A stretch of 64,000 nucleotides of DNA from Verrucomicrobiota bacterium. Its GTDB lineage: Bacteria > Verrucomicrobiota > Verrucomicrobiia > Verrucomicrobiales > Verrucomicrobiaceae. The notes below the pieces were generated by a model that had not been told where the DNA came from, ran no database searches, and saw nothing but the letters and a program-made list of their open reading frames with translations. The translations under genes were made by a program, and so were the position numbers. Below, piece after piece: positions 22,502 to 42,617 of this stretch (position 1 is the first letter of the stretch; every line of letters begins with the position of its first letter). The DNA is taken from the NCBI GenBank assembly GCA_017301975.1, contig JAFLEI010000013.1, positions 1 through 64,000 on the forward strand, in the 5' to 3' direction.

Positions 22502-22533
22502 GCCGGGGAGATTACCGGATGTGGGGGGGGAAT

Positions 22534-22710
22534 GTCGAGAGGGATGAGTAGGAAAAAGCCGTTAGACGGGCTGCTGGGGCTGCGTGACGGCTTGGGGAGA
22601 TGGGAGGGGTGAGTTGCGGATGCGGAACCGGAGTGGGCTTCCGTCTTCGCCGAGGCTACGAAGGACAAGAAAGCCGGTACCACAATGCGAAGAGACGAAA
22701 AGACTGAGAG
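22534..22710. repeat. Duplicated intergenic spacer, copy 1
   Basis: The spacer between the first two triple-module genes matches the spacer at 25853-26010 over most of its length. Shared parts are GTCGAGAGGGAT, the terminator hairpin, GGGGCTGCGTGACGGCTT, CTTCGCC(G/A)AGGCTACGAAGG and the run ending CGAAGAGACG. The tandem duplication therefore copied gene plus spacer. Confidence 0.75.
22553..22593 (-). terminator. Rho-independent terminator after paralogue B
   Basis: On the minus strand AAGCCGTCA (22593-22585) pairs with TAACGGCTT (22564-22556), with one mismatch. The stem is followed by a run of T. It lies about 140 bases past the stop of the gene at 22736-25822 and before the next start at 22501. 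Confidence 0.65.
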
Positions 22711-22735
22711 ACGGAGGGGGGGATGCGAAAGGTGG

Positions 22736-25700
22736 CTATTTGGTGACGGGCTGGTCAGCGGATCGAAGGATGTCGCAGGTGATGAAGATGGCCTGTAGGA
22801 TGTCGTCTTTTTCGAACTCGGGATTGCCGGTGGGTTTGCAGAGGGAGAGGAGGTGGGCAGAGCCGTCGGTGATGGTGATGCTGGTGGTGCCTTGGGTGGT
22901 GAAGTAATCGGTGAGGGGGAATTCGAGGCGGTGGCCCTGGGTGTCGATGATGTGCTCGCGATGCTCGAAGGGCGGGGCGGTGTGGTATTCGGAGGCGAGG
23001 GAGAGCTCGATGGTGGCACCGTCTGCGTTGACGGTGGGTTCGAGTTCCAGATGGAGGCCTACTTCGCGCTTTTTCTGAGAGAAATAGGGTTCGCCTTTTT
23101 CGTTCACACTCACGTCGGTGATGGCAGTGTGTTTGGTGGCCTGGGTGGTGGTGGCGCGGGTGCCGGATTTGGTCTCGATGCGGGCTGTGTGGAGGTGCTG
23201 CACGGTGCCTGTTTTTACGGCGGAGAGAAGTTCATCGAGTTCGGTGCGGTGATCGCTTTTGCTGGCGGCCCGGGAGGTGAGACTGCGCAGGAGCGGGGCG
23301 GGGCCTTTGAGGATGTGGGTGGTGAAGGCGATGATTGACGGTGGGCAAACAACAATGGAGTCCACATAGGTTTGGATGAGGTCGAGGTTTTCGTTCGTGT
23401 TCCTGACAACCATCTGAGTTGTTTGAGGGCCGTAGGAGACGGCTGTTCCTTCAGGAAAGGGGATGCCGGCTGCTTCCAGGATGGTCCTTGCTGTCCTGCG
23501 TTCTATTTTGCCGTCTGCGGTGGGCATATCTCCTCCTGCCGAGAGAAAATCAGGTGGCACGCGAAAGCTGCGGGTGTGGATGGCTTTGGGGTCGGCGGAT
23601 GGCTTGGGAGCAGGTGCGGGTTCTGCTATTGTATGGTGTGACTTTGCGACTTGAGGCACCACGTCGCATTTCAAAAAGGTGACCCAGAGCAGGTCTGTTT
23701 TGGTGAGGCCAGGGGGACGATTGACAGAGATGAGCTTGGTGCTGCCTTTGGCGACGCTGATGCCGGTGGTTGTGTGGAGGACGTTGAAATCGGTGAGGGG
23801 GATGTCGAAGGGCTGCTGTGATGCGGGATCGCGGAAATGGTCGCGGTGCAAGATGGGCGGCGTGGCATGGAGTTCGTGGCTAAAGATGAGGTCCACGGTG
23901 CTTGTGTCGGCACCGATGGTTGGCTCGGCTTCGAAGATGGAACCGACCTGCCGTGTTGCGAAACTGAGCGTGGTGCGACCTTGCGCATCGGTGCCGAAGC
24001 CGTCGAGGTAGCGATGCTCGCAGGCGGCGTGATGGTTGACTCGCGTGCCGGATTTGGTTTCGACGAAGGTGCTGTTGATGAATTTTGCCTCGCCACGTGC
24101 AACGGCGGATACCACGGCGTCGAACATCGTGGTATCATCGGCGGAGGCGAGCGTCTGGCGGGTGAGATCGCGCAGGAAGGGCGCGGGAGCTTCCAAGGTG
24201 TGGAGAGTCAGGGCGATGGTTTTGGGGAAGACGGAAAGCCTTTGGTCAATGATTGCCATGATGAAGGCGATGTTGTCCGGCGTGTTCACGCAGCGCAGGA
24301 TGCCGTCGTGATGTTCGAGGATGGAGCCTGAGGGAAAGGTGACGCCTGCCTGGGCAAGCCATGCCTGGAGTGTGACGGGCTTTGTGCCATGCAGTACTTC
24401 ATCAAACAAACCTTCGGGCGCTTGCAGGGCGGCGAAGATCATGCCGGATGGGATGGAGGAGGGTGGTGCGGCTTTCGGCTGTGATGGGGGCAATGCTTCA
24501 GTGCGGCGCAGCGAGGCGGTGAGAAACACGGCGGAGAGGATGTCTTCGCTCTCCTGCGGTGTGCCGACGGGTTTGGTGACGCCGATGAGCTTGGTGCTGC
24601 CAGCCTGCATGCTGAGGCCGGTGGTGATTTGCGTGCCTGGAATGTCGCTGAGAGGAAACTCTGCTGCGTGTCCGGTGAGAGGGTCGTTGACGGTGATCTG
24701 GCGCTGGGTCGGGGGGGCGGCGTTGAGCGCGAGACTGAGCGTGGTCTCGATGGTGGCTCCGTCGGCGCCGACGGTGGGCTCGATCTCCAGATGCAGGCCG
24801 ATTTTGTTCGTCTCTTTGGCGACGGAGGCGCGGCTTTTGGCATCGAGCGTGAAGTTGGCGGGGTGGCTGTGCTCACACACGGATTCGAGGACAGCGCGGG
24901 TGCCGGATTTGGTTTCGAGAAAGGCATCGCCAACGACGCGGACATTCGAGCCGGGCTTTTTCGTGAGATCGATCAGCGAGGTGAGTGCAGACGCGGCATT
25001 GACGCTGTGTGATGCCAGCGCATTGGCTTCACGGATGAGATCGCCCGGGCCTTCGAGGATGGTGAGGGTGTAGGCGACGAGTGCGGGGGCAAGGTGGCCT
25101 GATTCTGTGTAAGCCTCGATGAGATCGAGACTGGGCAGGGTGTTTTTGACGGTGAGCTGGCTGGTGAGAGGATCGAAGATGACGCTGGAACCTGCGGGAA
25201 ACGTGATGCCTGCTGATTCGAGGATTTGTCTGGGTGTTTTGAACTGGGGAGGTGGGGCATCCTGCGCAGCGGGGGGAGGGGGGGAGACGATGGCGAAGGG
25301 GTCTGCTGGCGCGGAGGTTGAAGTGTCGCCGACGGAGAGGAAATCTGGCGCGACGTGGTAGGTGCGGGTTTGCATCTCGTCTTCGAATGCATGGAGTCCC
25401 ACGACGAACACTGCCTCCGACTTCACCGTGAATCTCATCAGCGAGAGTTCGGTGACATAGCGTAAAATCTCGGACAGCGGGACATTCTTCAAATCGAGAG
25501 TGATGTGGGGCGAATCTTGAAAATCTGTTTGGCGAAGAATGATGTTCACGCCTTTCTTGGCTGCAGGGGCAGATGACTTGTCCAGTTCACGGCTCTGCTT
25601 GCGGAGAAATTCCAGCGCCTGCTTGAGCGTGGCATTTTCGAAATGAACCGAGGGGATGATGATCTCATCCATTTTCTGTCTCAGGCGGGCTTTGGCTTCG

Positions 25701-25822
25701 AGATCTGCCTGCTCAGGTGTGGGAGAGGAGACCTGGGGTGGTTTCTTGTCCTTGGGCGGTTCTTGGGACTGCGAAGGAAGGGCTGATGCCAGAAGCAGGA
25801 GAAGGAGGATGAAACGGCGCAT
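22736..25822 (-). CDS. Secreted protein of N0/STN domain plus three tandem secretin-like modules (paralogue B)
   Basis: This 1028-residue protein has a signal peptide at residues 1-19. An N0/STN-like domain follows (about 45-145; IIIPSVHFENATLKQALEFL and LDLKNVPLSEILRYV). Three modules come next, with ETKSGTRA motifs at about residues 301, 586 and 881. The linker after TRTYHVAPDFLS carries the ADPF motif also found in the true secretin. Module order and module-specific sequence match paralogues A and C, so triplication came before gene duplication. The protein lacks the terminal secretin signature. A role with the pilus-like secretin is inference from homology. Confidence 0.87.
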   Translation of the reverse strand: MRRFILLLLLLASALPSQSQEPPKDKKPPQVSSPTPEQADLEAKARLRQKMDEIIIPSVHFENATLKQALEFLRKQSRELDKSSAPAAKKGVNIILRQTDFQDSPHITLDLKNVPLSEILRYVTELSLMRFTVKSEAVFVVGLHAFEDEMQTRTYHVAPDFLSVGDTSTSAPADPFAIVSPPPPAAQDAPPPQFKTPRQILESAGITFPAGSSVIFDPLTSQLTVKNTLPSLDLIEAYTESGHLAPALVAYTLTILEGPGDLIREANALASHSVNAASALTSLIDLTKKPGSNVRVVGDAFLETKSGTRAVLESVCEHSHPANFTLDAKSRASVAKETNKIGLHLEIEPTVGADGATIETTLSLALNAAPPTQRQITVNDPLTGHAAEFPLSDIPGTQITTGLSMQAGSTKLIGVTKPVGTPQESEDILSAVFLTASLRRTEALPPSQPKAAPPSSIPSGMIFAALQAPEGLFDEVLHGTKPVTLQAWLAQAGVTFPSGSILEHHDGILRCVNTPDNIAFIMAIIDQRLSVFPKTIALTLHTLEAPAPFLRDLTRQTLASADDTTMFDAVVSAVARGEAKFINSTFVETKSGTRVNHHAACEHRYLDGFGTDAQGRTTLSFATRQVGSIFEAEPTIGADTSTVDLIFSHELHATPPILHRDHFRDPASQQPFDIPLTDFNVLHTTTGISVAKGSTKLISVNRPPGLTKTDLLWVTFLKCDVVPQVAKSHHTIAEPAPAPKPSADPKAIHTRSFRVPPDFLSAGGDMPTADGKIERRTARTILEAAGIPFPEGTAVSYGPQTTQMVVRNTNENLDLIQTYVDSIVVCPPSIIAFTTHILKGPAPLLRSLTSRAASKSDHRTELDELLSAVKTGTVQHLHTARIETKSGTRATTTQATKHTAITDVSVNEKGEPYFSQKKREVGLHLELEPTVNADGATIELSLASEYHTAPPFEHREHIIDTQGHRLEFPLTDYFTTQGTTSITITDGSAHLLSLCKPTGNPEFEKDDILQAIFITCDILRSADQPVTK

Positions 25823-25852
25823 GCCGGGGAGATTACCGGAGGCGGGGGCGGG

Positions 25853-26010
25853 ATGTCGAGAGGGATGGGTAGGAAAAAGCCGTCAGGCAGACCTCTGGGG
25901 CTGCGTGACGGCTTGGTGGATGGGAGAAGTGAGCAACGGATGAAGAGCGGGCTTCCTTCTTCGCCAAGGCTACGAAGGACGGTGAAGCCGGTGCTACAAT
26001 ACGAAGAGAC
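25853..26010. repeat. Duplicated intergenic spacer, copy 2
   Basis: This is the second copy of the spacer described at 22534-22710. It lies between paralogues B and C and includes the terminator hairpin. Confidence 0.75.
25874..25914 (-). terminator. Rho-independent terminator after paralogue C
   Basis: On the minus strand a perfect 9-bp stem, AAGCCGTCA (25914-25906) with TGACGGCTT (25885-25877), is followed by TTTTT. It lies 119 bases past the stop of the gene at 26033-29194, so each paralogue probably has its own transcript. Confidence 0.75.
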
Positions 26011-26032
26011 GGAGCGGGGATGCGATAGAGGG

Positions 26033-29000
26033 CTAGTTGGTGCCGGGCGGATCATCGGGACGCAGAACATCGCAGGTGATGAAGATGGCCTGGAGGATGT
26101 CTTCGTTTTCGAACTCGGGTTTGCCGGTGGGCTTGTAGAGGGAGAGGAGGCGGGTGGTGCCGGAGGGGAGGGGGATGGCGGTGGTGGTTTTGGAGGTGAA
26201 GTAGTCGGTGAGGGGAAATTCGAGGCGGTGGCCTTGGGGGGTGGTGAGGTGCTCGCGATGTTCGAGGGGTGGGGCGGTGTGGTATTCGGCGGAGAGAATC
26301 AGATTCACGAAGGGGCTGTCTTTGCTGGTGGTGGGTTCGAGTTCGACGTTGAGGCCGACGGAGCGGGGTTCTTGTTTGAATGCGGGCTGGCCTTTGGCAT
26401 CCAGGCTGAGTTCGCAGATGTATTGGTGCTCGGAGCCTTGATTTACGATGGCGCGGGTGCCGGGCTTGGTTTCAAGACGGGCGGTGTCGAGGTGCAGGAC
26501 GGTGCCGGGTTTGGCTGCGACGAGGAGTTCGTCGAACTCTGCACGGTGGTCGCTTTTGCGGGATACCTGGGCCGCGAGGCGGCGCAGGAGAGGGCCGGGG
26601 CCTTGCAGAACGTGGGTGGTGATGGCGACGGTGCTGGGCCGGGATTGCATATGTTTTTCAATCGCAGCGTCGATCAAGGCGTGGTTTGCGGGAGTGTTGC
26701 GGACTGTGAGGGTGGAGGTGGCGGAGTCGAAATGTGAGAGGCTTCCCTTGGGGAAGGTGAGACCCAGTTTTTCCAAGACCTCATTGGTCGTGGGTTGTCT
26801 TTTTGGGAATACCTCCGGGTAGCTCCCAAAGGGATCTGTTCCCATTTTGGGGGATGTCTCCTGAGGGCTTCCAAAAGGGTCTGTTCCCATTGCGGCTGGC
26901 GCTACTGGCGGGGGGAATGTTGCAGAGCGCAATTCATAGATGATCTCATGAGGAGGGTGGTACGTTCTTGTCTCCTGTGAGTCGGGATTTACGGGTGCCG
27001 GAGCTGTGACTGTCAGTGCATGTTTTGGTTTGAGAAAGTGCGGCACGACGCAGCATTGGAGAAAGGTGGCCCAGATGTGGTCGGCATGGCTGCTGCCGAG
27101 GTCCTGATGCAGGGCGATGAGTCTGATTTCTCCCTCGTGCATGGTGGTGTAGCCATGGGTTTTCAGCGCCCGGAGGGGCTGTGGGCTTTGGCTCTGAATG
27201 GGACCATCAGGCGCAACTGCACCACCGACTCCAGCAGGGACATGTAACGCGTGGTTGTAATCCACCGCGAGGGTCCTGCCGTCAGCGCCTATGGTGGGCT
27301 CTATTTCCAGAAACGAGCCGAGGAGCTGGTCCTTGAGGGAAATGGCGGGAGGGCTTTTGTCTTTGGGGGCCGTTTGATCCAGAAGGTAGCATTCGCGTGT
27401 GGCCACGTGGGTGGAGCGAGTGCCCGACTTGGTTTCAAAGAAGCTGGATTCAAGGAACACGGCCTCGCCGCGTGCTGCGGCGGCTTCCACTTCTTTCCAC
27501 TCGGCGGACTGGTCGCTGGAAGTCTGTGCAGCCTGGGAGAGTTTGGGCAAAAAGGCTGCGGGAAGTCGGACGGTGTGCAGAGTGACGGCGACAGTTTTGG
27601 GGGCTTTCTCCAAAGCTGCTCCAATCAACATGGAAATGCTGTCGATGTTTTCCTGTGTGTTTGTGACATGCAGGAGGTTGTTTTCCAGATCGATTTCAGC
27701 TCCGGACGGAAAGGTGACACCCTGCCCGATGAGCCAGTCTCGAAGCGGTTGAGGAACGGGCTCCATGATGGATTCAAAGAGCCCTGCCGGGATCGGGAAG
27801 GTGATGCTGGACAGACCGTTGGGGGGCGAAGAGGCTGAGGGAATGCCGCGAGCGAGATGGTGGGGCGGATTTTCCACATACCGAACGGATGATGTCATGA
27901 ACGCGGCCCAGAGCGTGGCGTCGGTTTTCTGCTGCAGACCGGGTGGTTTGATGATGCCGACGAGCTTGGTGGCGCCGCTGCGGACCACGAGATCGGAGGT
28001 AATGTGGACAGACGGAAAATCTGTCGCGGAAGCTGGAGACGTTTCGTCTGTGCGCGGTGCGACGAGATTGGAGACTTGATGCTCCACGGAGAGAGGTGGG
28101 CTCAGTTCGATATCGAGACTAAGATCGATGGTCTGACCGTCCGCTTGTATGGTTGGTTCGAGCTTGAGGCGCATGCCGGTGGATGGCCTGTCAGATGGTT
28201 CAACGAGGCGGCTGCTGAGGTCTGGTGAGATGCTGTTTGAAAGCCAAGGTTCGGACAGGGCTTCTGTCGTGACGGCGCATCCTGATTTTGTTTCGATGAA
28301 GGCATGGCCAGCGAGATGAACGAAGGACTCGGGCTTTTGAGCCAGATTGAGCAGGGTGGCGAGTTGTTTGCCGGCATCGGCGGTCTGCGAGGCCTCGGCA
28401 TTGATCTGGTGGATGAGATCGCCCGGGGCTTCGATGATGGTCAGATTGAAGGCGATGATTTTGGGAGGATTGTAGCAAATTGACTCACAATAGGCTTCGA
28501 CCAGATCGAGATTGGGCTGGGTGTTGGTGACCCTGAGCAGACCGGTGAGGGGATTGAAACTGGCGCTGCTGTTTTCGGGGAAGGGGATGCCTGAGGCTTC
28601 GAGGATTTGCTGCACGGATTTCCGTGGGATCTTGCCAACCGGAGTGGGGGCGGGTGCCGTGGTTGCAAAGGGATCTGCGGAAGCGTCTTGAGTCTCTGAA
28701 CCTCCGACTGAGAGGAAGTCCGGCGGGACTCTGAAGGTGCGGGTGCGCCTTTCTCTTTCGTAGGCGTGCCTGTCTGTGAGAATCACTCCTTCGGCATCGA
28801 CGCGGTACACCATTTCTCCAAGCTCGGCGACGTAGCGGAGGGCTTCAGAAAAGGGGACGTCCTTCAAATCCAGAGTGATGCGGGACTCGTGTGGAAGCTT
28901 GGGCTCGCGAAGGATGATGTTCACGCCCTTGCCGCCTGCGGGGGCAGATGACTTGTCCAGCTCACGGCTTTTCTTGCGGAGGAATTCGAGCGCCTGCTCA

Positions 29001-29194
29001 AGCGTGGAATCTTCGAAATGAACCGAGATGATGATCTCATCCATTTTTTGCATCAGACGGGCTTTGGTGTCCAGGTCCACGCTGGTGGGCGGGGCTGGAG
29101 TGTCAGGAGCTGGGGCTTTGCTCTTTGCCGGCTCTTCGGCATGGGCCAAGGTGGCGAAGGCCCAAAGCAGGAGGAGGCTGCAGGTGCGGTGCAT
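26033..29194 (-). CDS. Secreted protein of N0/STN domain plus three tandem secretin-like modules (paralogue C)
   Basis: This is the 1053-residue, longest paralogue. It has a signal peptide (about residues 1-19), an N0/STN domain (about 50-150; LDLKDVPFSEALRYV) and three modules whose signature motifs are ETKSGCAV (about 299), ETKSGTRS (about 585) and ETKPGTRA (about 906). The first and third are the most diverged of the nine module motifs. The linker before module 3 contains a short duplication of GTDPFGS, which extends the conserved DPF linker motif. There is no C-terminal secretin signature. It is transcribed first in the minus-strand block and ends in its own terminator. Confidence 0.87.
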   Translation of the reverse strand: MHRTCSLLLLWAFATLAHAEEPAKSKAPAPDTPAPPTSVDLDTKARLMQKMDEIIISVHFEDSTLEQALEFLRKKSRELDKSSAPAGGKGVNIILREPKLPHESRITLDLKDVPFSEALRYVAELGEMVYRVDAEGVILTDRHAYERERRTRTFRVPPDFLSVGGSETQDASADPFATTAPAPTPVGKIPRKSVQQILEASGIPFPENSSASFNPLTGLLRVTNTQPNLDLVEAYCESICYNPPKIIAFNLTIIEAPGDLIHQINAEASQTADAGKQLATLLNLAQKPESFVHLAGHAFIETKSGCAVTTEALSEPWLSNSISPDLSSRLVEPSDRPSTGMRLKLEPTIQADGQTIDLSLDIELSPPLSVEHQVSNLVAPRTDETSPASATDFPSVHITSDLVVRSGATKLVGIIKPPGLQQKTDATLWAAFMTSSVRYVENPPHHLARGIPSASSPPNGLSSITFPIPAGLFESIMEPVPQPLRDWLIGQGVTFPSGAEIDLENNLLHVTNTQENIDSISMLIGAALEKAPKTVAVTLHTVRLPAAFLPKLSQAAQTSSDQSAEWKEVEAAAARGEAVFLESSFFETKSGTRSTHVATRECYLLDQTAPKDKSPPAISLKDQLLGSFLEIEPTIGADGRTLAVDYNHALHVPAGVGGAVAPDGPIQSQSPQPLRALKTHGYTTMHEGEIRLIALHQDLGSSHADHIWATFLQCCVVPHFLKPKHALTVTAPAPVNPDSQETRTYHPPHEIIYELRSATFPPPVAPAAMGTDPFGSPQETSPKMGTDPFGSYPEVFPKRQPTTNEVLEKLGLTFPKGSLSHFDSATSTLTVRNTPANHALIDAAIEKHMQSRPSTVAITTHVLQGPGPLLRRLAAQVSRKSDHRAEFDELLVAAKPGTVLHLDTARLETKPGTRAIVNQGSEHQYICELSLDAKGQPAFKQEPRSVGLNVELEPTTSKDSPFVNLILSAEYHTAPPLEHREHLTTPQGHRLEFPLTDYFTSKTTTAIPLPSGTTRLLSLYKPTGKPEFENEDILQAIFITCDVLRPDDPPGTN

Positions 29195-33235: not shown

Positions 33236-33868
33236 ATGAAATCCATCAGCTTGATTCTCGCATCCCTTCTTCTTGCCAATGTCGTTCAGGCACAAGCACC
33301 GGCGACGGGTGACAAACTGCCTGGGATCAAAATCAAGATCAAAGGGGTAGACGTGCAAGAACAGCAGACGCCGATGCTCAGCGTGAGCAACATCCAGATG
33401 AAGCGCTGGACGCCGAAGAACTGGATCGAGCTGGATGTGGAGTTTGACATCAAGCTTCCGGAGATCGCGGGCGGAAGAAAGGGGACCTATCCAGGGCTGC
33501 AGCTCACCTTTTATGTGGCGCTGAATCACATGACCAAGGACAACAAGCGTGAGGTGATCACCGGCACGCTGGATCTGGTGGACATTCCGGCTGACGAACC
33601 CTGCCACGCGCTGGCCTACATCTCCCCAGCCACGCTGAAATCGATTTTCCAAAAAGACTTTGTGACCGCCTCCGCCGACATTCAGGGCTGGGGTGTTGAG
33701 TTTGTGGCGGAAGGCAAAGTAATTGCGGCCAAGTCGAGCCTGGGCAACAAGCCCTGGTGGGAGAGCAAGGAGAATTTCGCCATGCTGCAGGGAATGCTGC
33801 TGAACAAGATGCAGACACCCTTTGCGAATGTTTTCGGCGACTATGATGTGCCGGTCAAGGCCAAGTAA
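33236..33868 (+). CDS. Amuc_1102-family pilus-like protein
   Basis: The ATG at 33236 opens into a signal peptide (MKSISLILASLLLANVVQA) and gives 210 residues; the TTG at 33215 would only add charged residues ahead of the signal. The mature protein is all-beta in character. Position, size and gene order match Amuc_1102, the last member of the Akkermansia pilus-like cluster, and this together with homology of the following genes is the basis of the name. It should be a periplasmic or outer-membrane-associated subunit. It is the first gene of a five-gene operon. Confidence 0.75.
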   Translation: MKSISLILASLLLANVVQAQAPATGDKLPGIKIKIKGVDVQEQQTPMLSVSNIQMKRWTPKNWIELDVEFDIKLPEIAGGRKGTYPGLQLTFYVALNHMTKDNKREVITGTLDLVDIPADEPCHALAYISPATLKSIFQKDFVTASADIQGWGVEFVAEGKVIAAKSSLGNKPWWESKENFAMLQGMLLNKMQTPFANVFGDYDVPVKAK

Positions 33869-33921
33869 CCTCCGCAGTTTCGTCAGTTCCTCATTGTTCA
33901 GCGATTTTTACCTTATCCAGC

Positions 33922-35670
33922 ATGGCAGACCCAAACAGCATTGCAGTCATCAGTCTTGGCTCCCAGCGTGTCAGCGGAGCATTCTTCGGCAAGACGTCGG
34001 GAGGGGACCTTGTCCTGAAGCGGTATGAAATCATTGAACTGGATGGAGATCCCTCTGTGGATGTCAGCCGCCTGCCCCAGCTGAAGCTGGCGCTGCAGGA
34101 ACTGGCCGCCAAGGTGAAGATCAAGGGCCAGAAGACATGGTGCTCCGTCCCCGGGCATCCGGTGTTCAGCCGGTTTGTGAAGCTTCCTCCGGTGCAAGGG
34201 GACAAGCTGGCGCAGATCGTGGAGTTTGAAGCGAGGCAGAACGTGCCCTGGCAGCTGGATGAAGTGTCCTGGGACTACGAAGTGGTGAGCAAGTCCGACC
34301 TGGGCGAGATCGAAGTGGTGCTGGCCGCCATGAAATGCGAGCCGCTGAACGAGATGCATGAGGAAGTGGATTCCTGCGGCGTCAAAGTGGTCGGGATGGA
34401 CGTGGGCCCGCTGGCCTTGTACAACGCTTTCCGCTACAGCTATCCTGATGTGGACGAACCCGCTTTGATTGTGGACATGGGCGCCCGTTCCACCAATCTG
34501 GTGTTTGTTGAGGGTGACCGCTTTTTCACGCGCAATCTGCTGGTCGGTGGCGCAGCTGTGACCAATGCGATCGCCAAGGAATTCAGCATTCCCTTTGCCG
34601 AGGCGGAGCGCCAGAAGCGTGCGCAGGGCTTTGTGGCTCTGGGCGGTGCGGTGGAGGATCATCCGGATGAGGGCGTGAACGCCATGTCCAAGGTGATGCG
34701 CAATTCGATGACGCGTCTGCATGCCGAGATCATGCGCACGATCACCTTTTACCGCAGCCAGCAGGGCGGGAGCGCGCCGAAGCGTGTCTTCCTTGCCGGC
34801 GGGGGATCAGGGGCGGGATACATTGCAGAATTTTTTGCGGAGAAACTGAAGCTGCCGGTGGAGATCTACAACGGCCTGCGTGGTGTGCAGACTGACCGTG
34901 GGGTGAGCGTGGAAGCCGCCCAAGCTGATGCTCCCGCGATGGGAGAGCTCGTCGGACTCGCCTTGCGCGGCATGGGCTCATGCCCCTGTGAAATCGAGCT
35001 GGTGCCAAAGGCGCTGGCTTCTTCGCGAGATGCAGCGCGGCGTGCGCCGGCGCTGGTTCTGGCCGGACTTTGCGTGCTGGGTGCTCTGGGGGCCGGGATT
35101 TTCTGGTTCAACAAAGCTGACGAGGTGATCAAAAACCGCGCGAAGGCTCTGACCGAGGAGAGCGCACAGCTGAGCAATCTGGCGAATCAAATCCGCCAAC
35201 TGGACGCGAGGCAGGAGGAACTCCGCCAGCGCAGCGCGCAACTGGAGCAGGCGGTGACCGACCGCTCTTGGTGGGCGCACCTGCTCAATGACCTGAACCA
35301 GCAGTTCGACAACGATCTGATCTGGCTGCCTGTGATTGAAGTGCTGAAGGATGGCAAACCCATCACCGCGCCGCTCTGGGGTGGGGAGGCAAATGCAGTC
35401 AAGCCGGACACAACCACGAAACCCGGGGCGCAAGCCGCGCCGGTGTATTCACTGCGCATGCAGGGCCTGTATCGTAAAAACGACAAGGGAGAGCAGAAGG
35501 TGGTGTATGATTTTGCCGCCAAACTGGCCAAGCTGAACGCCTTCAACGCGCCGGATTTTGAAGCTCAACGAGATAAATATGTGAAGGTGGACAGTGGCGT
35601 GGACGAAGAGCGCTACGCCTATCACTTCGAAATTAAAATGCCCCTCCGCAATCCTCTGCAATTTCAATAA
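33922..35670 (+). CDS. Amuc_1101-family PilM-like ATPase fused to a PilN-like membrane tail
   Basis: This 582-residue protein has an actin-like PilM domain at residues 1-350 (ISLGSQRVSGAFF, IVDMGARSTNLVFVEGDRFF, VFLAGGGSGAGYIAEF). A transmembrane segment follows at about 375-395 (LVLAGLCVLGALGAGIF), then a coiled coil (QIRQLDARQEELRQRSAQLE) and a PilN/O-like periplasmic tail. In classical type IV pilus systems PilM and PilN are separate and form the inner-membrane platform. Here both parts are in one chain, as in Amuc_1101. It lies 53 bp after the Amuc_1102-like gene and 6 bp before the Amuc_1100-like gene. Confidence 0.88.
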   Translation: MADPNSIAVISLGSQRVSGAFFGKTSGGDLVLKRYEIIELDGDPSVDVSRLPQLKLALQELAAKVKIKGQKTWCSVPGHPVFSRFVKLPPVQGDKLAQIVEFEARQNVPWQLDEVSWDYEVVSKSDLGEIEVVLAAMKCEPLNEMHEEVDSCGVKVVGMDVGPLALYNAFRYSYPDVDEPALIVDMGARSTNLVFVEGDRFFTRNLLVGGAAVTNAIAKEFSIPFAEAERQKRAQGFVALGGAVEDHPDEGVNAMSKVMRNSMTRLHAEIMRTITFYRSQQGGSAPKRVFLAGGGSGAGYIAEFFAEKLKLPVEIYNGLRGVQTDRGVSVEAAQADAPAMGELVGLALRGMGSCPCEIELVPKALASSRDAARRAPALVLAGLCVLGALGAGIFWFNKADEVIKNRAKALTEESAQLSNLANQIRQLDARQEELRQRSAQLEQAVTDRSWWAHLLNDLNQQFDNDLIWLPVIEVLKDGKPITAPLWGGEANAVKPDTTTKPGAQAAPVYSLRMQGLYRKNDKGEQKVVYDFAAKLAKLNAFNAPDFEAQRDKYVKVDSGVDEERYAYHFEIKMPLRNPLQFQ

Positions 35671-35676
35671 AGAATC

Positions 35677-36651
35677 ATGGACTGGATACGTGAAAACAAA
35701 CCATTGGCCGCCATTCTTGGCGTTATTGTCGTCGGCTCGCTGGCCCTTGGCTACCTGCTGTTTGATGCATGGAACGTCTATTCGGAAACCAAGGAGGGAT
35801 ACCTGGGCCTTGGCGGACAGGTGGCCGGCCTGAAGGGATCTCAACTGGCCCCTACGGAGGCCAACCTCAAGGCCAAACAGGACGCGGTAAAGGAGTATGA
35901 GAATCTGGTGACGACCCTTGGCAAGACGGTGCTATTCCTTCAGCCGAAGGTGGCACCAGTCAATGACATCGAGTTTCAAGAGAAGCTCAAAACCAAGATC
36001 TCTGACATCCGCAAGGCTGTGCAATCAAAAATGCAGCTGCCTGCAGAATTCGCCTTCGGCTTTGATGACTACACGCATACCCTGCCCACGTCGGCCGCGG
36101 CCGCCACGGAGCTTATGGACTATCTCGAAGCCATCGACGAGCTGATGAAGCTGTTCCTGAACAGTGGCGTCCTCTCAGTGGATCTGCTGGAGCGCTCCAA
36201 ACTGCCCGTTGAAGCCTCAAAGGCTGCGACTCAAGGAAACAACAATGCCGGCATCCGGGGCCAGGTGGCCTCCAATATTCTGGAGAAACGCCAGATTTCA
36301 GTGGTTTTGACCCTGGATCAGGGGCCGCTGCAACTGCTGATCAGCCGCCTGACCAGCCCGAGCGACATGCCCTATTTCACCAGCCTGCGTCTGCTGCGCA
36401 TTGAGAATCAACTTCAGGACGGGCCGCTGCATTCTGAAGTCAGGCTGCCAGAGCCTGCGGTGAAAGTCGAAGGAGGGGCAGCCCAGGCGGAGGAAGCTCC
36501 TTCGGATGAGATCAAGCCCCCCGATCCAGCCACTCCGGATGCCGTTTCCGTGTTTGGCAATGAACTCCTGAAGGTCCGGCTTGAAATTGATCTGGTCAAA
36601 TTTCTAGACGCCGCCGCAGGCATCACGGCCCAGACACCAGCCGGACGTTGA
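35677..36651 (+). CDS. Amuc_1100-family pilus-like protein
   Basis: This 324-residue protein matches Amuc_1100 of Akkermansia (317 residues) in length and in its N-terminus. It begins MDWIRENKPLAAILGV, where Amuc_1100 has a similar WI-NKPAA-GV pattern. One membrane segment (about residues 9-30) is followed by a coiled coil and two alpha/beta lobes. Amuc_1100 is the pilus-cluster protein reported to signal through TLR2. In type IV pilus terms it resembles PilO. It is translated 6 bp after the PilM-like gene. The family call is strong; any host interaction here is not implied. Confidence 0.85.
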   Translation: MDWIRENKPLAAILGVIVVGSLALGYLLFDAWNVYSETKEGYLGLGGQVAGLKGSQLAPTEANLKAKQDAVKEYENLVTTLGKTVLFLQPKVAPVNDIEFQEKLKTKISDIRKAVQSKMQLPAEFAFGFDDYTHTLPTSAAAATELMDYLEAIDELMKLFLNSGVLSVDLLERSKLPVEASKAATQGNNNAGIRGQVASNILEKRQISVVLTLDQGPLQLLISRLTSPSDMPYFTSLRLLRIENQLQDGPLHSEVRLPEPAVKVEGGAAQAEEAPSDEIKPPDPATPDAVSVFGNELLKVRLEIDLVKFLDAAAGITAQTPAGR

Positions 36652-36689
36652 TCTCACTTTATAAAAATCCGCAGCCTTAAAGCACCACC

Positions 36690-37682
36690 ATGCAGAACCG
36701 ACAGGGCAACTACGAAAAAACCATTCTGATCATTTCCTCACTCCTCGCGATAGGGGTGGCAGTGTTTCTGATACTCGAATCCCAAGGGTTTGAGGAGAGT
36801 CTCATCCTGCCGCAGGGATTTTCCAAGAATGACCTTAACACACCCGCCAGCCAGAAGGTGGTGGACGCCACTGAAACCATGAAGAAAAAATACTCATGGC
36901 TTTCCCCGGTGAGGAATGGAAAAGCAGTGCCTCTGAACAAGTCAGTTCTGCTGGTGATGAAGGGTGGGAATTTGTACGATCTCCTGCTGCCGGAGCCGAT
37001 GCTGCGTCCGCCCATGCCGAACATCTTCCTCACGGGGGATCAGACGAAAAACCCGCCTGAAGCGCAGCTTCCCAACATCTTTTCGCCCAATGTGGGCCAG
37101 TTGGACGCGGACAAGGACGGATTTTCCAACTTGGAAGAGTTCAATGCCAAGACGGACCCGCGGGATGCGGGATCCATGCCGCCATACACTGACAAGCTGT
37201 TCCTCATCAAGCGGATCAGCCATGACTACATTCTGCTGCTCAAAGGCGGCAGCGACGGCACCTTCCAGATCCAGCGGCTGGTTCCCACCCGGGCCAGCGT
37301 GTTCAAGCCGATGAACGAGGAGTTTGGGTTTGATAAAAACACGCTCCGTTTCAAAATTCTCTCCAACCGGAAAGAAACGGCTGAAACCAAATTCGGCCCC
37401 AAGGAGATTTACATTCTGAAGGTGCTGGACATGTCCACCCAGAAGGAATTCGAAATGGTGGAGGGCAAGGAGGTGAACCTGGCAGATTATGAGGCGGAAT
37501 TCGAATTCCGCTGGAAAAAGCGCCAGGTCATTCCGGGCGTCAAAGAAGGCGGGACGTTCCAGCTTCCCGGCCTTGGCAAATCTTATTACATTCTCAAACT
37601 GGAAGAAAACAAAGCCATCATCGCGCCTCTTGGCGCCGATGGCAAACCAACGAAAGAAACTATCGAAATCAAGCAAGGCTGA
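36690..37682 (+). CDS. Amuc_1099-family pilus-like protein
   Basis: This 330-residue protein has one N-terminal membrane segment (about residues 12-30) and a periplasmic part of about 300 residues. The middle contains LPNIFSPNVGQLDADKDG and NAKTDPRDAGSMPPY. The C-terminal repeats (GGTFQLPGLGKSYYILKLEE) suggest a small beta domain like that of PilP, the lipoprotein that links the inner-membrane platform to the secretin. Gene order matches Amuc_1099, directly upstream of the secretin gene. Confidence 0.8.
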   Translation: MQNRQGNYEKTILIISSLLAIGVAVFLILESQGFEESLILPQGFSKNDLNTPASQKVVDATETMKKKYSWLSPVRNGKAVPLNKSVLLVMKGGNLYDLLLPEPMLRPPMPNIFLTGDQTKNPPEAQLPNIFSPNVGQLDADKDGFSNLEEFNAKTDPRDAGSMPPYTDKLFLIKRISHDYILLLKGGSDGTFQIQRLVPTRASVFKPMNEEFGFDKNTLRFKILSNRKETAETKFGPKEIYILKVLDMSTQKEFEMVEGKEVNLADYEAEFEFRWKKRQVIPGVKEGGTFQLPGLGKSYYILKLEENKAIIAPLGADGKPTKETIEIKQG

Positions 37683-37782
37683 GGCCTTGGCTATTTTCAC
37701 CCGACCGAAAAATTAACTCGCCAAAGTTCGCCCCAATCTGTTAGTAATCTCTCTTTACCACAAAATATTGTCAGTCTGCCCT

Positions 37783-40434
37783 ATGACCCATCACTCTCGT
37801 CTGGTGTTCAACCTTTCCCTTCTCGTTTTGACAACGGCCTCGCCATCGATCATGGCCCAAAGTCAAAGTACCGTCTCTGGAATGGCCAATCGCGAAATCG
37901 CCCGCCGCTATGCTCGTATTGAAGATGCGCGTACTGCCATGGATCGTGGTGACAAATTGTTCAGCGAAGGCGATTACGATGGTGCGCTTAATTCCTACAA
38001 AGCTGCCATCGACTCCCTGCCCAACGCTCCTCTGACCCGTGACTGGCTGGATCTTGCCCAGCTCAAGTATGCTGATTGCAGCGTGACGGTTGCGCGGGAA
38101 CGCGCCAAGGCCGGCAATTACAAGGAAGCCCGGCAATTGCTGGAAGGTGCCATGGTTTATATCCCAGGCCACAAGGGTGCAGTTCTTTTCCTGAAGGAGC
38201 TTGAAGACCCGGACCGCTGGCCGCCGGCGCTGACTGCCGAACACGTGACCAACGTGGGCAAAGTGCAGGCAGGGCTGCTGCTGGGAAACAGCTCAGTGGA
38301 GCTCGGCAACTATGATGCTGCCATCTCGCAGTATCAGGATGTCCTGAGGACTGACCCCTACAACAGCACGGCCCGCCGCGGCATGGAGAATGCCGAGCGC
38401 AAGCGCCAGGCCTATTTCAAGGCAGCCTACGACCACCAGCGTGCCAAAATGCTGGCCCAGGTGACGGAGACTTGGGAAGACAAGGTTCCGGTGCAGGGTG
38501 CGACCATCAGCTTTGACTATGGCGTGGGGCGCAGCCCTGGCGCGTATCTGACCGAGAAAATGAACAGGATCATTTTCCCGACGGTGCAATTTGACGGTGC
38601 CACCATTGAAGAGGCCATTGAATACCTGCGTATCAAAAGCCGCGATTTGGACACCTTCACGGACAAGAGCGGAGTCAAGGGTGTCAATATCATTCTTCGC
38701 AACGGTGAAGCGCCTAACAACGCCTCCATCAGTCTCGATCTGAAAGACGTGCCGATGGCCGAGGCGCTTCGCTATGTGACCGAGCTTGCCCAAATGAAGT
38801 TTAAGGTGGAAGCACACGCCGTGCTGGTGGTGCCTATTTCTGAGAATGCGAGCGAGCAGTATACCCGCAGCTATCGCGTCCCGCCGGATTTCCTGAGCTC
38901 GGGCGGTGGCGACCCAGGCGGTGGTGCCGCCCCAGCGGCAGCAGCGGATCCTTTCGCGGCTGGTGCAGGTGCCCCTGCAGGCGGGAGCAGTTTGATCACC
39001 CGTAGAACAGCACGTCAGATTCTTGAAGCATCGGGGATCGTCTTCCCTGAAGGCGCTTCGGCGAGCTACAACCCGGCCAATTCCCAATTGGTGGTGAGAA
39101 ATACCCAGCCTAACTTGGACTTGGTGGAAGCTTATGTGGAATCCATCACGAAGCTGGCCCCCAAGATGGTGGTCATCACCTCCAAGTTCGTTGAAGTGAC
39201 TCAGAAAAACACCGAAGAGCTTGGTTTTGACTGGCTCCTCGGCGGAGTGGGTGTGGGTAATCTGGTTCTGGGTGGTGGCAGCACTGGCAACGGCAACGCA
39301 TACAATGCCGCCAACTATCCCTTCCAAGCATCGAACTTGGTCATTCCGGGCTACTATGTGGGCACCGAGCAGGTGTTTCCTAACATTCCGGTGGCTGCAG
39401 CCTTTGCAGGATCTCTCCCGCTTGGCGCCGTTCCAGGAAACTCTGTCAGTGGTGCCAATCCGAACGGAACCTCTCCGTTCCCTTATGGTGGTGGCCCGGT
39501 CACTGCCGGGAATCGCAGCGGTGGTTATGCCATCAGCAACAGCAGCATCGACAACCTGCTGACCACGGGGTCCACGACCGCTACGACGAGCGTGGCGCCT
39601 GGCATCTTCTCCACGGCGGGCATTTTCTCCGATCCGGCCTTCCAGACAGTTCTTCGCGGCCTGAGCCAGAAAAAAGGCGTGGACTTGATGAGCGCTCCGA
39701 GTGTCACCACCAAGAGCGGCACCCGTGCCACCATGGAAGTCACGCGTGAATTCATTTATCCAACCGAATTTGATCCTCCTCGTCTTCCCCAAGGTGGTGG
39801 CGGTCTGAATGTTGGTGGCGGCGGCGGTGGTGGTCAGCAGATCGCTACTCCCACGACTCCGACGGCGTTCGAAATGCGCCAGACGGGTGTTCGCCTTGAG
39901 GCTGAACCTACGGTGGGTGCGGATGGCAACACGATTGAACTGACTCTGGCCCCCGAAGTGGTGGAGTTTGACGGATTCATCAACTACGGCTCTCCCATTC
40001 TGTCGCCTTCGAGCCAGTCGGTTCTGCCGATTCAGCTCTCCACTGGGACGATTGGCTACGTTCCTCTGCAACAGCCTGAGCGTCTGATAACTCCTAACAT
40101 CATCAACCAGCCCGTGTTCTCGGTGCGCAAGGTGACCACGGGTGTGTCGATCTGGGATGGCCAGACGGTGGCTCTCGGCGGCCTGATCCGCGAAGACGTG
40201 CAGGACGTGCAGGACAAAGTGCCTATCCTTGGCGATCTTCCCTTCGTCGGCCGCCTGTTCAAGAGCGAGTCGGAGCAGCACTACAAGCGCAATTTGATGA
40301 TCTTTGTGACGGCCCATCTGATCGACCCCTCGGGTCAGCGGATCAAGCCCGCCAACCCTGTGCAGGCAGCCGCTGGAGATGCTGTCGCAGGTCCTGGCGC
40401 ATTGAATCCTTTGCTGCCGCCGGTGACTCCTTAA
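37783..40434 (+). CDS. Amuc_1098-family type IV pilus/type II secretion-like secretin
   Basis: The ATG at 37783 opens into the signal peptide (MTHHSRLVFNLSLLVLT); the TTG at 37768 is an alternative. The 883-residue protein has N-terminal TPR-like repeats (about 40-230), an N0/STN domain (about 262-365) and a DPF-containing Gly/Ala/Pro linker. An N1-like domain (about 408-460) and a full secretin domain (about 461-840) follow. The secretin domain has SAPSVTTKSGTRA, the strand VTTGVSIWDGQTVALGG and the terminal signature VPILGDLPFVGRLFKSE. It should form the outer-membrane ring of the pilus-like machine. It is the parent-like relative of the three triple-module proteins at 19787-29194. Confidence 0.93.
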   Translation: MTHHSRLVFNLSLLVLTTASPSIMAQSQSTVSGMANREIARRYARIEDARTAMDRGDKLFSEGDYDGALNSYKAAIDSLPNAPLTRDWLDLAQLKYADCSVTVARERAKAGNYKEARQLLEGAMVYIPGHKGAVLFLKELEDPDRWPPALTAEHVTNVGKVQAGLLLGNSSVELGNYDAAISQYQDVLRTDPYNSTARRGMENAERKRQAYFKAAYDHQRAKMLAQVTETWEDKVPVQGATISFDYGVGRSPGAYLTEKMNRIIFPTVQFDGATIEEAIEYLRIKSRDLDTFTDKSGVKGVNIILRNGEAPNNASISLDLKDVPMAEALRYVTELAQMKFKVEAHAVLVVPISENASEQYTRSYRVPPDFLSSGGGDPGGGAAPAAAADPFAAGAGAPAGGSSLITRRTARQILEASGIVFPEGASASYNPANSQLVVRNTQPNLDLVEAYVESITKLAPKMVVITSKFVEVTQKNTEELGFDWLLGGVGVGNLVLGGGSTGNGNAYNAANYPFQASNLVIPGYYVGTEQVFPNIPVAAAFAGSLPLGAVPGNSVSGANPNGTSPFPYGGGPVTAGNRSGGYAISNSSIDNLLTTGSTTATTSVAPGIFSTAGIFSDPAFQTVLRGLSQKKGVDLMSAPSVTTKSGTRATMEVTREFIYPTEFDPPRLPQGGGGLNVGGGGGGGQQIATPTTPTAFEMRQTGVRLEAEPTVGADGNTIELTLAPEVVEFDGFINYGSPILSPSSQSVLPIQLSTGTIGYVPLQQPERLITPNIINQPVFSVRKVTTGVSIWDGQTVALGGLIREDVQDVQDKVPILGDLPFVGRLFKSESEQHYKRNLMIFVTAHLIDPSGQRIKPANPVQAAAGDAVAGPGALNPLLPPVTP

Positions 40435-40466: not shown

Positions 40467-40505
40467 TCAGGCAGGATGCGTCAGCATCCTGCCTGAAGTG
40501 TTTTT
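40467..40505 (+). terminator. Strong Rho-independent terminator after the secretin gene
   Basis: A perfect 13-bp stem, TCAGGCAGGATGC (40467-40479) with GCATCCTGCCTGA (40484-40496), closes a 4-base loop and is followed by AGTGTTTTT. It ends the pilus-like operon. Confidence 0.9.
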
Positions 40506-40551: not shown

Positions 40552-41154
40552 ATGAAATCTTGGCTCATCACCGGCGGCGCAGGCTGTGGCAAAAGTTCCC
40601 TGGCAACGCTCTTGATGGAGCAGCTTCCGGGGACGCATCGTTTCTATTCTGCCGATGCGATGGTGGCGGAGGTCATGAAACGTGAATCCACCCTCAAGGG
40701 ACTGGTGGCCGCATTCGGGGCGCGGGTTCTGGCGACTCCCGGAGAGGTCAACCGTCAATGGCTGCGGGACGTTGTGCTGCCAGATGCGGCCATGCGCAGA
40801 AAGCTGGAAGGGCTGCTGCACCCACCCGTTCTGGAGGCCCTCGAAACAGCCCGTAGGGAGGCCGAAAAGGAGGGGGTGAATCTTTTCCTTGCGGAAGTCC
40901 CCCTCCACTATGAGATTGGAGGCACAGTTTCAGCAGACCTTGTCATCGTGGTGGCTTCCAGCCGGTCGGTGCAGGTCAGGCGGATGATGGAGACCCGGGG
41001 ACTCGACGAACAGACCGTTCACAAGTTCCTGGAGGCCCAATGGCCCATCGAAGCCAAGGTTGAAAGAGCAGATGCCGTCATTTGGAATGATGGTTCTCTG
41101 GCCTCTCTTGAAGCCCAGGTGCTGACGCTGGCAAGTCCACTCTTGCAAGCATGA
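40552..41154 (+). CDS. coaE: Dephospho-CoA kinase
   Basis: This 200-residue P-loop kinase catalyses the last step of coenzyme A synthesis, ATP-dependent phosphorylation of dephospho-CoA. Walker A is ITGGAGCGKSSLA (about residues 6-18), followed by YSADAMVAEVMKR in the substrate region. VEVPLHYE-type residues appear as LAEVPLHYEIGG, and the lid region holds VRRMMETRGL. Its length matches bacterial CoaE. The stop overlaps the rho start by 4 bp (ATGA), so coaE, rho and rnd are translationally coupled. Confidence 0.93.
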   Translation: MKSWLITGGAGCGKSSLATLLMEQLPGTHRFYSADAMVAEVMKRESTLKGLVAAFGARVLATPGEVNRQWLRDVVLPDAAMRRKLEGLLHPPVLEALETARREAEKEGVNLFLAEVPLHYEIGGTVSADLVIVVASSRSVQVRRMMETRGLDEQTVHKFLEAQWPIEAKVERADAVIWNDGSLASLEAQVLTLASPLLQA

Positions 41155-42617
41155 ACGACCCATCTACCGAATCCCCCGCAACGGTTGCGGCACCCCCCGC
41201 CCCCCCAGTGACGGAACCTATCTCTGCTGACACTCCTCCCGTGGCGAACTCTGAGCCGCAGCCAGAAGGCGCACCGGCCGCCCAATCCCCCGCCGTTCCA
41301 GCTGAGCCGCCTGCGGAGCCGACCAAGACGGATGGCGCGCAGCCACCCTTTCCGGAGGAGATCTCGATCAACGAACTGCAGAACTCCTCGCTGGCGGAGC
41401 TGCTGGAACTCGCCGAGAAGGTGGGCTTCCGCCTGAATGCCAGCCGGACGAAGCATCAGCTCATCTACGACCTGTGTTCATGGATGGCGGAGCACAAGAC
41501 CCGGCTTACCGTGGAGGGAGTGCTGGAAATCGGCACGGACAACTACGGGCTCATCCGTTATCCGAAATACAGCTTCATGCCGCTGCCGGAGGATGTGTTT
41601 GTTCCTTTGTTTTTGGTCAGGAAATTCAATCTGCGTCCCAGCCAGAGAATCGCAGGAATCGCCAAGGCGCCCAAGGATCGGGACAAGTATCTGGCGATTG
41701 ACCGCATCACCGAAGTTGAAGGCATTGCCATCGACAAATGGGAGATGCCGACGGAATTTGACAAGCTGACGGCGACCTTTCCGAACAAGCGCATCATTCT
41801 TGAAACGGCGAAGCCCTGTGCGGTCAGCTCCCGCATTTTGGACATCGTGGCACCGCTGGGCAAAGGGCAGCGTGGTCTGATCTGCGCACCGCCGCGGTCA
41901 GGCAAGACGGTGATCCTGAAAGACATTGCCAAATCGATCTCGCAAAATCACAAGGAGATCACGCTCATCGTGCTGCTGCTGGACGAGCGCCCCGAGGAAG
42001 TGACCGATTTCGAAGAGACGGTGAGCGGCTGCGAGATTTACAGCTCCACCTTTGATGAGAGTCCGAAGCGGCACAGCCAGGTGGCGGAGATTGTGCGTGA
42101 GCGCGCCTGCCGTCTGGTGGAGATGAAGAAGGATGTGGTCATTCTGCTGGACAGCATCACGCGTCTGGCCCGCGGCTACAATTCATCGCAAGGCAGCAAG
42201 GGCGGAGCCTACATGGCCGGGGGCGTGGGCACGAAGTCGCTGCAAAAGCCCAAGAAGTTCTTCGGATCCGCGCGCAATGTGGAAGAGGGCGGCAGCCTGA
42301 CGATTATTGCCACCGCGCTGATCGAAACCGAGAGCCGCATGGATGAGGTGATCTTTGAAGAGTTCAAGGGCACTGGAAACATGGAGGCGACGCTGGATCG
42401 AGAGATCTCCGAGCGCCGCATTTATCCGGCGCTGCATCTGTTGAAGTCCGGCACGCGACGTGACGACCTGCTTTATCATCCGGACGAATTCCGGCGCATC
42501 ACGCAAGTGCGCAAACAGCTTGCCGCTGTTCCCGCCGTCGAGGCACTGGAGATGCTCATCCGCAACATCAACCGCACGAGCAATAATGCGGAAATCCTCC
42601 TCATGGGCCTGAAATGA
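41151..42617 (+). CDS. rho: Transcription termination factor Rho
   Basis: This 488-residue Rho helicase has an unusual Pro/Ala/Glu-rich N-terminal extension (about residues 1-60) before the Rho-N domain ([20 protein letters not shown]). The RNA-binding cold-shock domain (about 115-190) includes [15 protein letters not shown]. The hexameric ATPase domain has Walker A in APPRSGKT (about 246), and its Q-loop region reads [21 protein letters not shown]-terminal extensions are typical of Bacteroidetes/Verrucomicrobia Rho and may add RNA contacts. It overlaps both coaE and rnd by 4 bp. Confidence 0.96.

Follow-up and report, generated by a model that had tools for sequence, protein, structure and literature searches.

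The five co-directional genes at positions 33,236 to 40,434 (+ strand) of the 64,000-nucleotide stretch of DNA analysed here (the window) very probably encode the subcomplex that provides envelope-spanning alignment and the outer-membrane part in a machine resembling a type IVa pilus; the partners of this subcomplex are encoded elsewhere in the genome. The genes are relatives of Amuc_1102, 1101, 1100, 1099 and 1098 of Akkermansia muciniphila, and are referred to here by these numbers. That they belong to one dispersed pilus machine is deduced from the families of the proteins, the pilM-N-O-P-Q order of their genes, the co-occurrence of the operon with a particular type of PilC, and the set of four ATPases found in a complete Akkermansia genome.

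The operon and its five products

In an ORF scan of the window, five ORFs on the + strand follow each other in the order Amuc_1102, 1101, 1100, 1099, 1098. The TTG starts called for the first and last of them are extensions, and the ATG starts yield signal peptides. All five products score above the curated NCBIfam cut-offs: 1102 (33,236–33,868; NF042424, 135.7 bits, cut-off 55; PDB 7dsz, E=9e-9), 1101 (33,922–35,670; NF045709, 758.4 bits, cut-off 650; also TIGR01175 pilM, 149 bits, cut-off 133), 1100 (35,677–36,651; NF038287, 288.2 bits, cut-off 180), 1099 (36,690–37,682; NF042425, 215 bits, cut-off 50) and 1098 (37,783–40,434; NF042912, 978.5 bits, cut-off 750, with Pfam Secretin and TPR matches). 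An earlier, sequence-only reading of this DNA had described an operon in the Akkermansia order with an Amuc_1100 relative among its genes and had named the similarity of 1102 and 1099 beforehand as its test; order, relative and both similarities are borne out. The operon genes are under purifying selection (dN/dS 0.07–0.21 against two close relatives). They are followed by an intrinsic terminator (40,467–40,496, + strand; TCAGGCAGGATGCGTCAGCATCCTGCCTGA) with a 13-pair stem, a loop of 4 and a T-rich tail, which is the strongest of the region; that reading had likewise noted a strong terminator. Further downstream on the same strand lie the coaE and rho genes that it had named as neighbours, coding for dephospho-CoA kinase (40,552–41,154; Pfam CoaE, 1.6e-31) and transcription termination factor Rho (41,151–42,617; Pfam Rho_RNA_bind and ATP-synt_ab). 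Both are conserved neighbours, rho being located at most four genes downstream of the operon in 49 loci, and coaE is outside the machine.

Judged from its sequence and its structural model, the 1101 protein combines PilM and PilN in a single polypeptide. The fusion is read from separate matches to the two proteins in the PDB, from an invariant L-x-P linker and from the folds of the model. Residues 1–351 of the 1101 profile match PilM (E=1.6e-72), and residues 354–483, without overlap, match Myxococcus xanthus PilN (E=1.3e-10). The layout comprises an actin-like cytoplasmic domain, one transmembrane helix (near residue 376), a coiled coil and a periplasmic alpha/beta domain; the AF2 model (pLDDT 88) likewise has the actin-like domain, followed by a long helix that crosses the membrane once and by a small alpha/beta domain in the periplasm. 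The top folds retrieved with it by Foldseek are Pseudomonas aeruginosa PilM and the PilM:PilN peptide complex. The IELVP linker (34,993–35,007, + strand), of which L360 and P362 are invariant in 37/37 relatives, would be the positional equivalent of the N-terminal PilM-docking peptide of PilN (INLxP), as suggested by PDB 5eou and 2ych. Pfam PilN gives weak matches in four members of the 1101 set only, and the genome encodes a single PilM_2 protein. In one genome (G146) the 1101 gene carries one TAA inside. This anatomy is what is added here, and earlier reports of PilM-PilN fusions may exist outside the open-licence literature.

The 1100 protein is bitopic, with an N-terminal membrane helix, a coiled coil and an alpha/beta domain, and its profile matches the Amuc_1100 structures 6lad, 6kny and 6laf. 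Pfam PilO does not reach 1100. Alignment by hhalign to a PilO/GspM-like profile, built from the Pfam PilO matches of the phylum, which are not Amuc_1100 relatives, gives a probability of 93% over just 49 columns of the globular part; the unrelated 1102 used as control stays below 1%. On this sequence evidence 1100 is, with moderate confidence, PilO-like. Its N-terminal helix is strongly hydrophobic and shows no consistent site for signal peptidase, and a PilO-like 1100 that keeps this helix uncleaved would reside in the inner membrane. Amuc_1100 has been localised at the surface, and its cluster has been proposed to make pili-like structures (PMC5332112); this surface location sits badly with a PilO role in the inner membrane.

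The 1099 protein is membrane-anchored and has a C-terminal beta region and a motif of EF-hand type (DADKDGFSNLEE; 37,104–37,139, + strand), which is predicted to be of the calcium-binding type. The motif, of the form DxDxDG, is present in 27/32 relatives and has been lost in five Opitutae-like members. Several members also have C-x-x-C pairs, and in several families of the phylum (e.g., L082, L081, L077, L078) a zinc-ribbon-like CxxC...CPFC insert precedes the motif. The confident AF2 model of 1099 (pLDDT 88) has no PDB fold match in Foldseek at E<=0.001. True PilP identity was considered and rejected: the PDB sequence search, Foldseek and hhalign against GspC/PilP-like proteins were all negative, Pfam PilP itself being too narrow (matched in none of the control genomes and in 1/241 here). 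It is by the position of its gene that 1099 is given the place of PilP, and it is not demonstrably PilP. The 1102 protein is secreted by means of a type I signal peptide and has the Ig-like fold of PDB 7dsz, the solved structure of Amuc_1102. The prepilin motif occurs in none of the 26 members of the 1102 set, which rules 1102 out as a pilin. An apparent similarity of 1102 to GspE in blastp (71 residues, E=2e-5) is not credible and was discarded.

The 1098 protein is a secretin of the outer membrane that carries a TPR region at its N-terminus. It belongs to a family of its own (NF042912) and scores below the PilQ and GspD cut-offs; its Pfam Secretin match (3e-31) marks it as a PilQ-type secretin. 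A second full-length secretin of the 1098 type (50% identity) is encoded on another contig of the genome (C71; L239:6269-8851) without pilM, pilN or pilO neighbours, and in L066 and L075 the 1098 gene itself is present in tandem copies. The window itself contains, at 19,787–29,194 on the - strand, three tandem paralogues (887, 1028 and 1053 aa) composed of repeated periplasmic N-domains of the 1098-type secretin and short pieces of the secretin core, with no full barrel domain; the repeats are 46–50% identical to residues 254–471 of 1098. Similar N-domain arrays are found about 9–10 kb from the operon in several other genomes of the genus (e.g., G289 C64, G310 C6, G300 C57, G292 C2, G296 C11 and G290 C83). 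The proteins of these arrays may serve the secretin as adaptors or act as its decoys.

Motors, platform protein and pilin elsewhere in the genome

A search of the whole 64,000-nucleotide window found neither a prepilin-type gene nor a type IV ATPase, as the sequence-only reading had stated. Its description of the operon as complete holds for the five genes and fails for the machine, the motors, platform protein and pilin being on other contigs; of the machine, the operon supplies just the alignment and outer-membrane components. The check for pilB, pilT, pilC and pilin genes elsewhere that it had proposed finds them on two contigs (C42 and C8). The genome has 13 T2SSE-type matches. Contig C42 carries a PilB1-PilB2-PilC-pilin cluster that has no secretin or PilM. 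The prepilin of this cluster has a class III signal (MKSTHFAFHSRKRAFTLVEML), adjoins PilC and is the candidate major pilin. PilT pairs are encoded on C8 and C1. Three separate T2SS-type clusters (C36, C31, C62) have their own E, F and pseudopilins, and two of them L/M-type genes. A further cluster (L046:5801-14781, on C45), in which a PilT-type ATPase, several prepilins and small membrane proteins of PilN/O/P layout lie next to a secretin of its own, is a different type IV-filament system.

The link between the operon and the C42 genes comes from their occurrence across genomes. In a complete genome (G033) there are only four T2SSE ATPases, and these are the orthologues of PilB1, PilB2, PilT1 and PilT2 of C42 and C8; the pilin beside PilC is also retained. 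The genus of G033 is taken to be Akkermansia because its Amuc_1100 nearly equals the crystallised protein. In a search for PilC of the C42 type among genomes grouped according to whether they have 1101, the orthologue (about 350 bits or more, GspF-like matches reaching at most 281) was present in 14/14 of those carrying the operon and in 1/18 of those lacking it (Fisher p=3e-8, a statistic that ignores phylogeny). The exception, G108, keeps PilB/PilC with the operon absent. In another genome without the operon, G284, the C42-type pilC is found in broken pieces (C65:94224-95514), which looks like ongoing joint loss. Motor genes adjoining the operon are not the rule in other genomes, where one PilC (L073) and one PilT (L166) were found beside it. 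In two loci from other families of the class (L240, on G176 C20, and G108 C6) the order is PilB1-PilT-PilB2-PilC, and the location of PilT between the two PilB genes supports a single extension and retraction unit.

Distribution in the phylum

The nearest named relatives of 1101 are from freshwater Prosthecobacter MAGs (89–90% identity), in agreement with the environmental host that had been suggested from the sequence. Matches to the Amuc_1100 family occur in 224 of the 289 genomes sampled from the phylum, only 30 of which are above the curated Amuc_1100 cut-off, the rest being more distant relatives. Of the 113 loci carrying 1101, 96 keep the block 1101-1100-1099-1098 unbroken, and 1102 lies just upstream in 90; exceptions to the order are mostly contig ends, and 1102 went unrecognised in six loci. 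The operon is absent from one family (f4), from the 0.9 Mb genomes of another (f7) and from several Opitutae-like genera. Family f4 is probably Methylacidiphilaceae, this and all other family names except that of Akkermansia being deduced. The idea of a phylum-wide envelope machine is thus right as to wide occurrence and too strong as to the phylum, several lineages of which are without the operon. Given its broad distribution and kept gene order, the operon is not a gut adaptation, in line with the sequence-only reading. Synteny of the locus, including dephospho-CoA kinase and rho, has been reported across Akkermansiaceae and other Verrucomicrobiales in a 2026 paper in the ISME Journal, in which the locus was undetected in Methylacidiphilales (PMC13174399). 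The absence from f4 agrees with this non-detection, and since both synteny and spread are reported there, the main claim on distribution is largely published already.

The proposed machine, its alternatives and known systems

In the machine proposed here, the actin-like part of 1101 would form a ring in the cytoplasm, in contact with the motors and joined via the membrane helix to the periplasmic domain. The PilO-like 1100 would pair with 1101 in the inner membrane, and 1099, in the place of PilP, would bridge to the secretin 1098, to which a TPR region is fused and which would serve as the channel in the outer membrane. The secreted Ig-fold protein 1102 would be an accessory, this role being suggested by its fold as that of 1099 is by its position. 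The C42-type pilin would form the filament, with extension by PilB1/PilB2 and PilC and retraction by the PilT pair encoded elsewhere. The sequences demonstrate the families, the PilM-PilN fusion, the gene order and the co-occurrence with the motor; physical assembly and pilus activity are predicted from these.

The layout of 1101 is also that of GspL, and weak T2SSL matches (8/37 members of the 1101 set), T2SSM_b matches (3/34 of the 1100 set) and the many secreted enzymes predicted in such genomes could point to a type II secretion core, in which the 1098 channel and a 1101-1099 platform would export folded enzymes via a pseudopilus. This is very unlikely, however, as 1101 fits PilM far better than GspL, the genome has its three T2SS-type clusters besides, and Akkermansia keeps the operon without a GspE-type ATPase and accompanied by a retraction-type PilT pair; no GspE, GspF or pseudopilin linked to the secretin locus was found in the window. 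That the five proteins themselves build pili, with 1100 and 1102 as filament subunits, is suggested by the name 'pili-like proteins', by the surface location of Amuc_1100 and by the published proposal for the cluster (PMC5332112). Yet the prepilin motif missing from the 1102 set is present in the C42 pilin, and 1100 is PilO-like with a hydrophobic N-terminal helix and no consistent signal-peptidase site, all of which makes such a filament extremely improbable.

The locus has also been named mucin utilization locus MUL2, with genetics in A. muciniphila cited and particle attachment and selfish uptake proposed (PMC13174399). The operon would then encode a glycan capture and uptake apparatus, in which polysaccharide reaches the periplasm by way of the secretin and the Ig-fold protein, and pilus-like parts are reused for attachment. 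We regard this as unlikely, since alone it does not explain the PilM-N-O-Q architecture or the co-occurrence with PilB/PilC, but it is compatible with the pilus machine if retracting pili do the capturing. Within the preferred reading of a dispersed pilus machine, we tentatively entertain the possibility of a lineage-specific type IV pilus architecture, in which PilM and PilN are fused, a secretin-fused TPR region replaces the pilotin, a protein with a calcium motif substitutes for PilP, an Ig-fold accessory is added, the N-domain arrays are a Prosthecobacter decoration, and Amuc_1100 is an inner-membrane PilO homologue.

Amuc_1100 has been studied as a probiotic effector and in immune signalling, and is called a 'pili-like outer-membrane protein'. 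Were the protein the PilO component of a pilus machine with a wide distribution, it would natively serve a structural purpose, and the surface exposure reported for it would have to be tested again. The likely motor genes named here (PilB1, PilB2, PilC and the PilT pair) make a pilus role testable in Akkermansia and in free-living relatives.

Compared with Amuc_1098-1102 (MUL2) of A. muciniphila, the operon has the same five families in the same order, with coaE and rho downstream; it differs in that the host is an environmental Prosthecobacter, the 6.9 Mb genome of which also has T2SS-type clusters and a second 1098-type secretin. With GspL-GspM-GspC-GspD of type II systems it shares the combination of an actin-like, a membrane and a periplasmic part in a single protein, as in GspL, whereas the sequence and fold of 1101 are of PilM/PilN type and no GspE-F-G cluster is attached. 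With the type IVa PilM-PilN-PilO-PilP-PilQ set it has in common the equivalents of M, N and Q, with a putative equivalent of O, in the same order and the link to PilB, PilC, PilT and a pilin. In contrast to that system, PilM and PilN are fused, a TPR region is fused to the secretin, 1099 is not recognisable as PilP, 1102 is an extra Ig-fold gene, and the motors, with two tandem PilB genes, are not adjacent.
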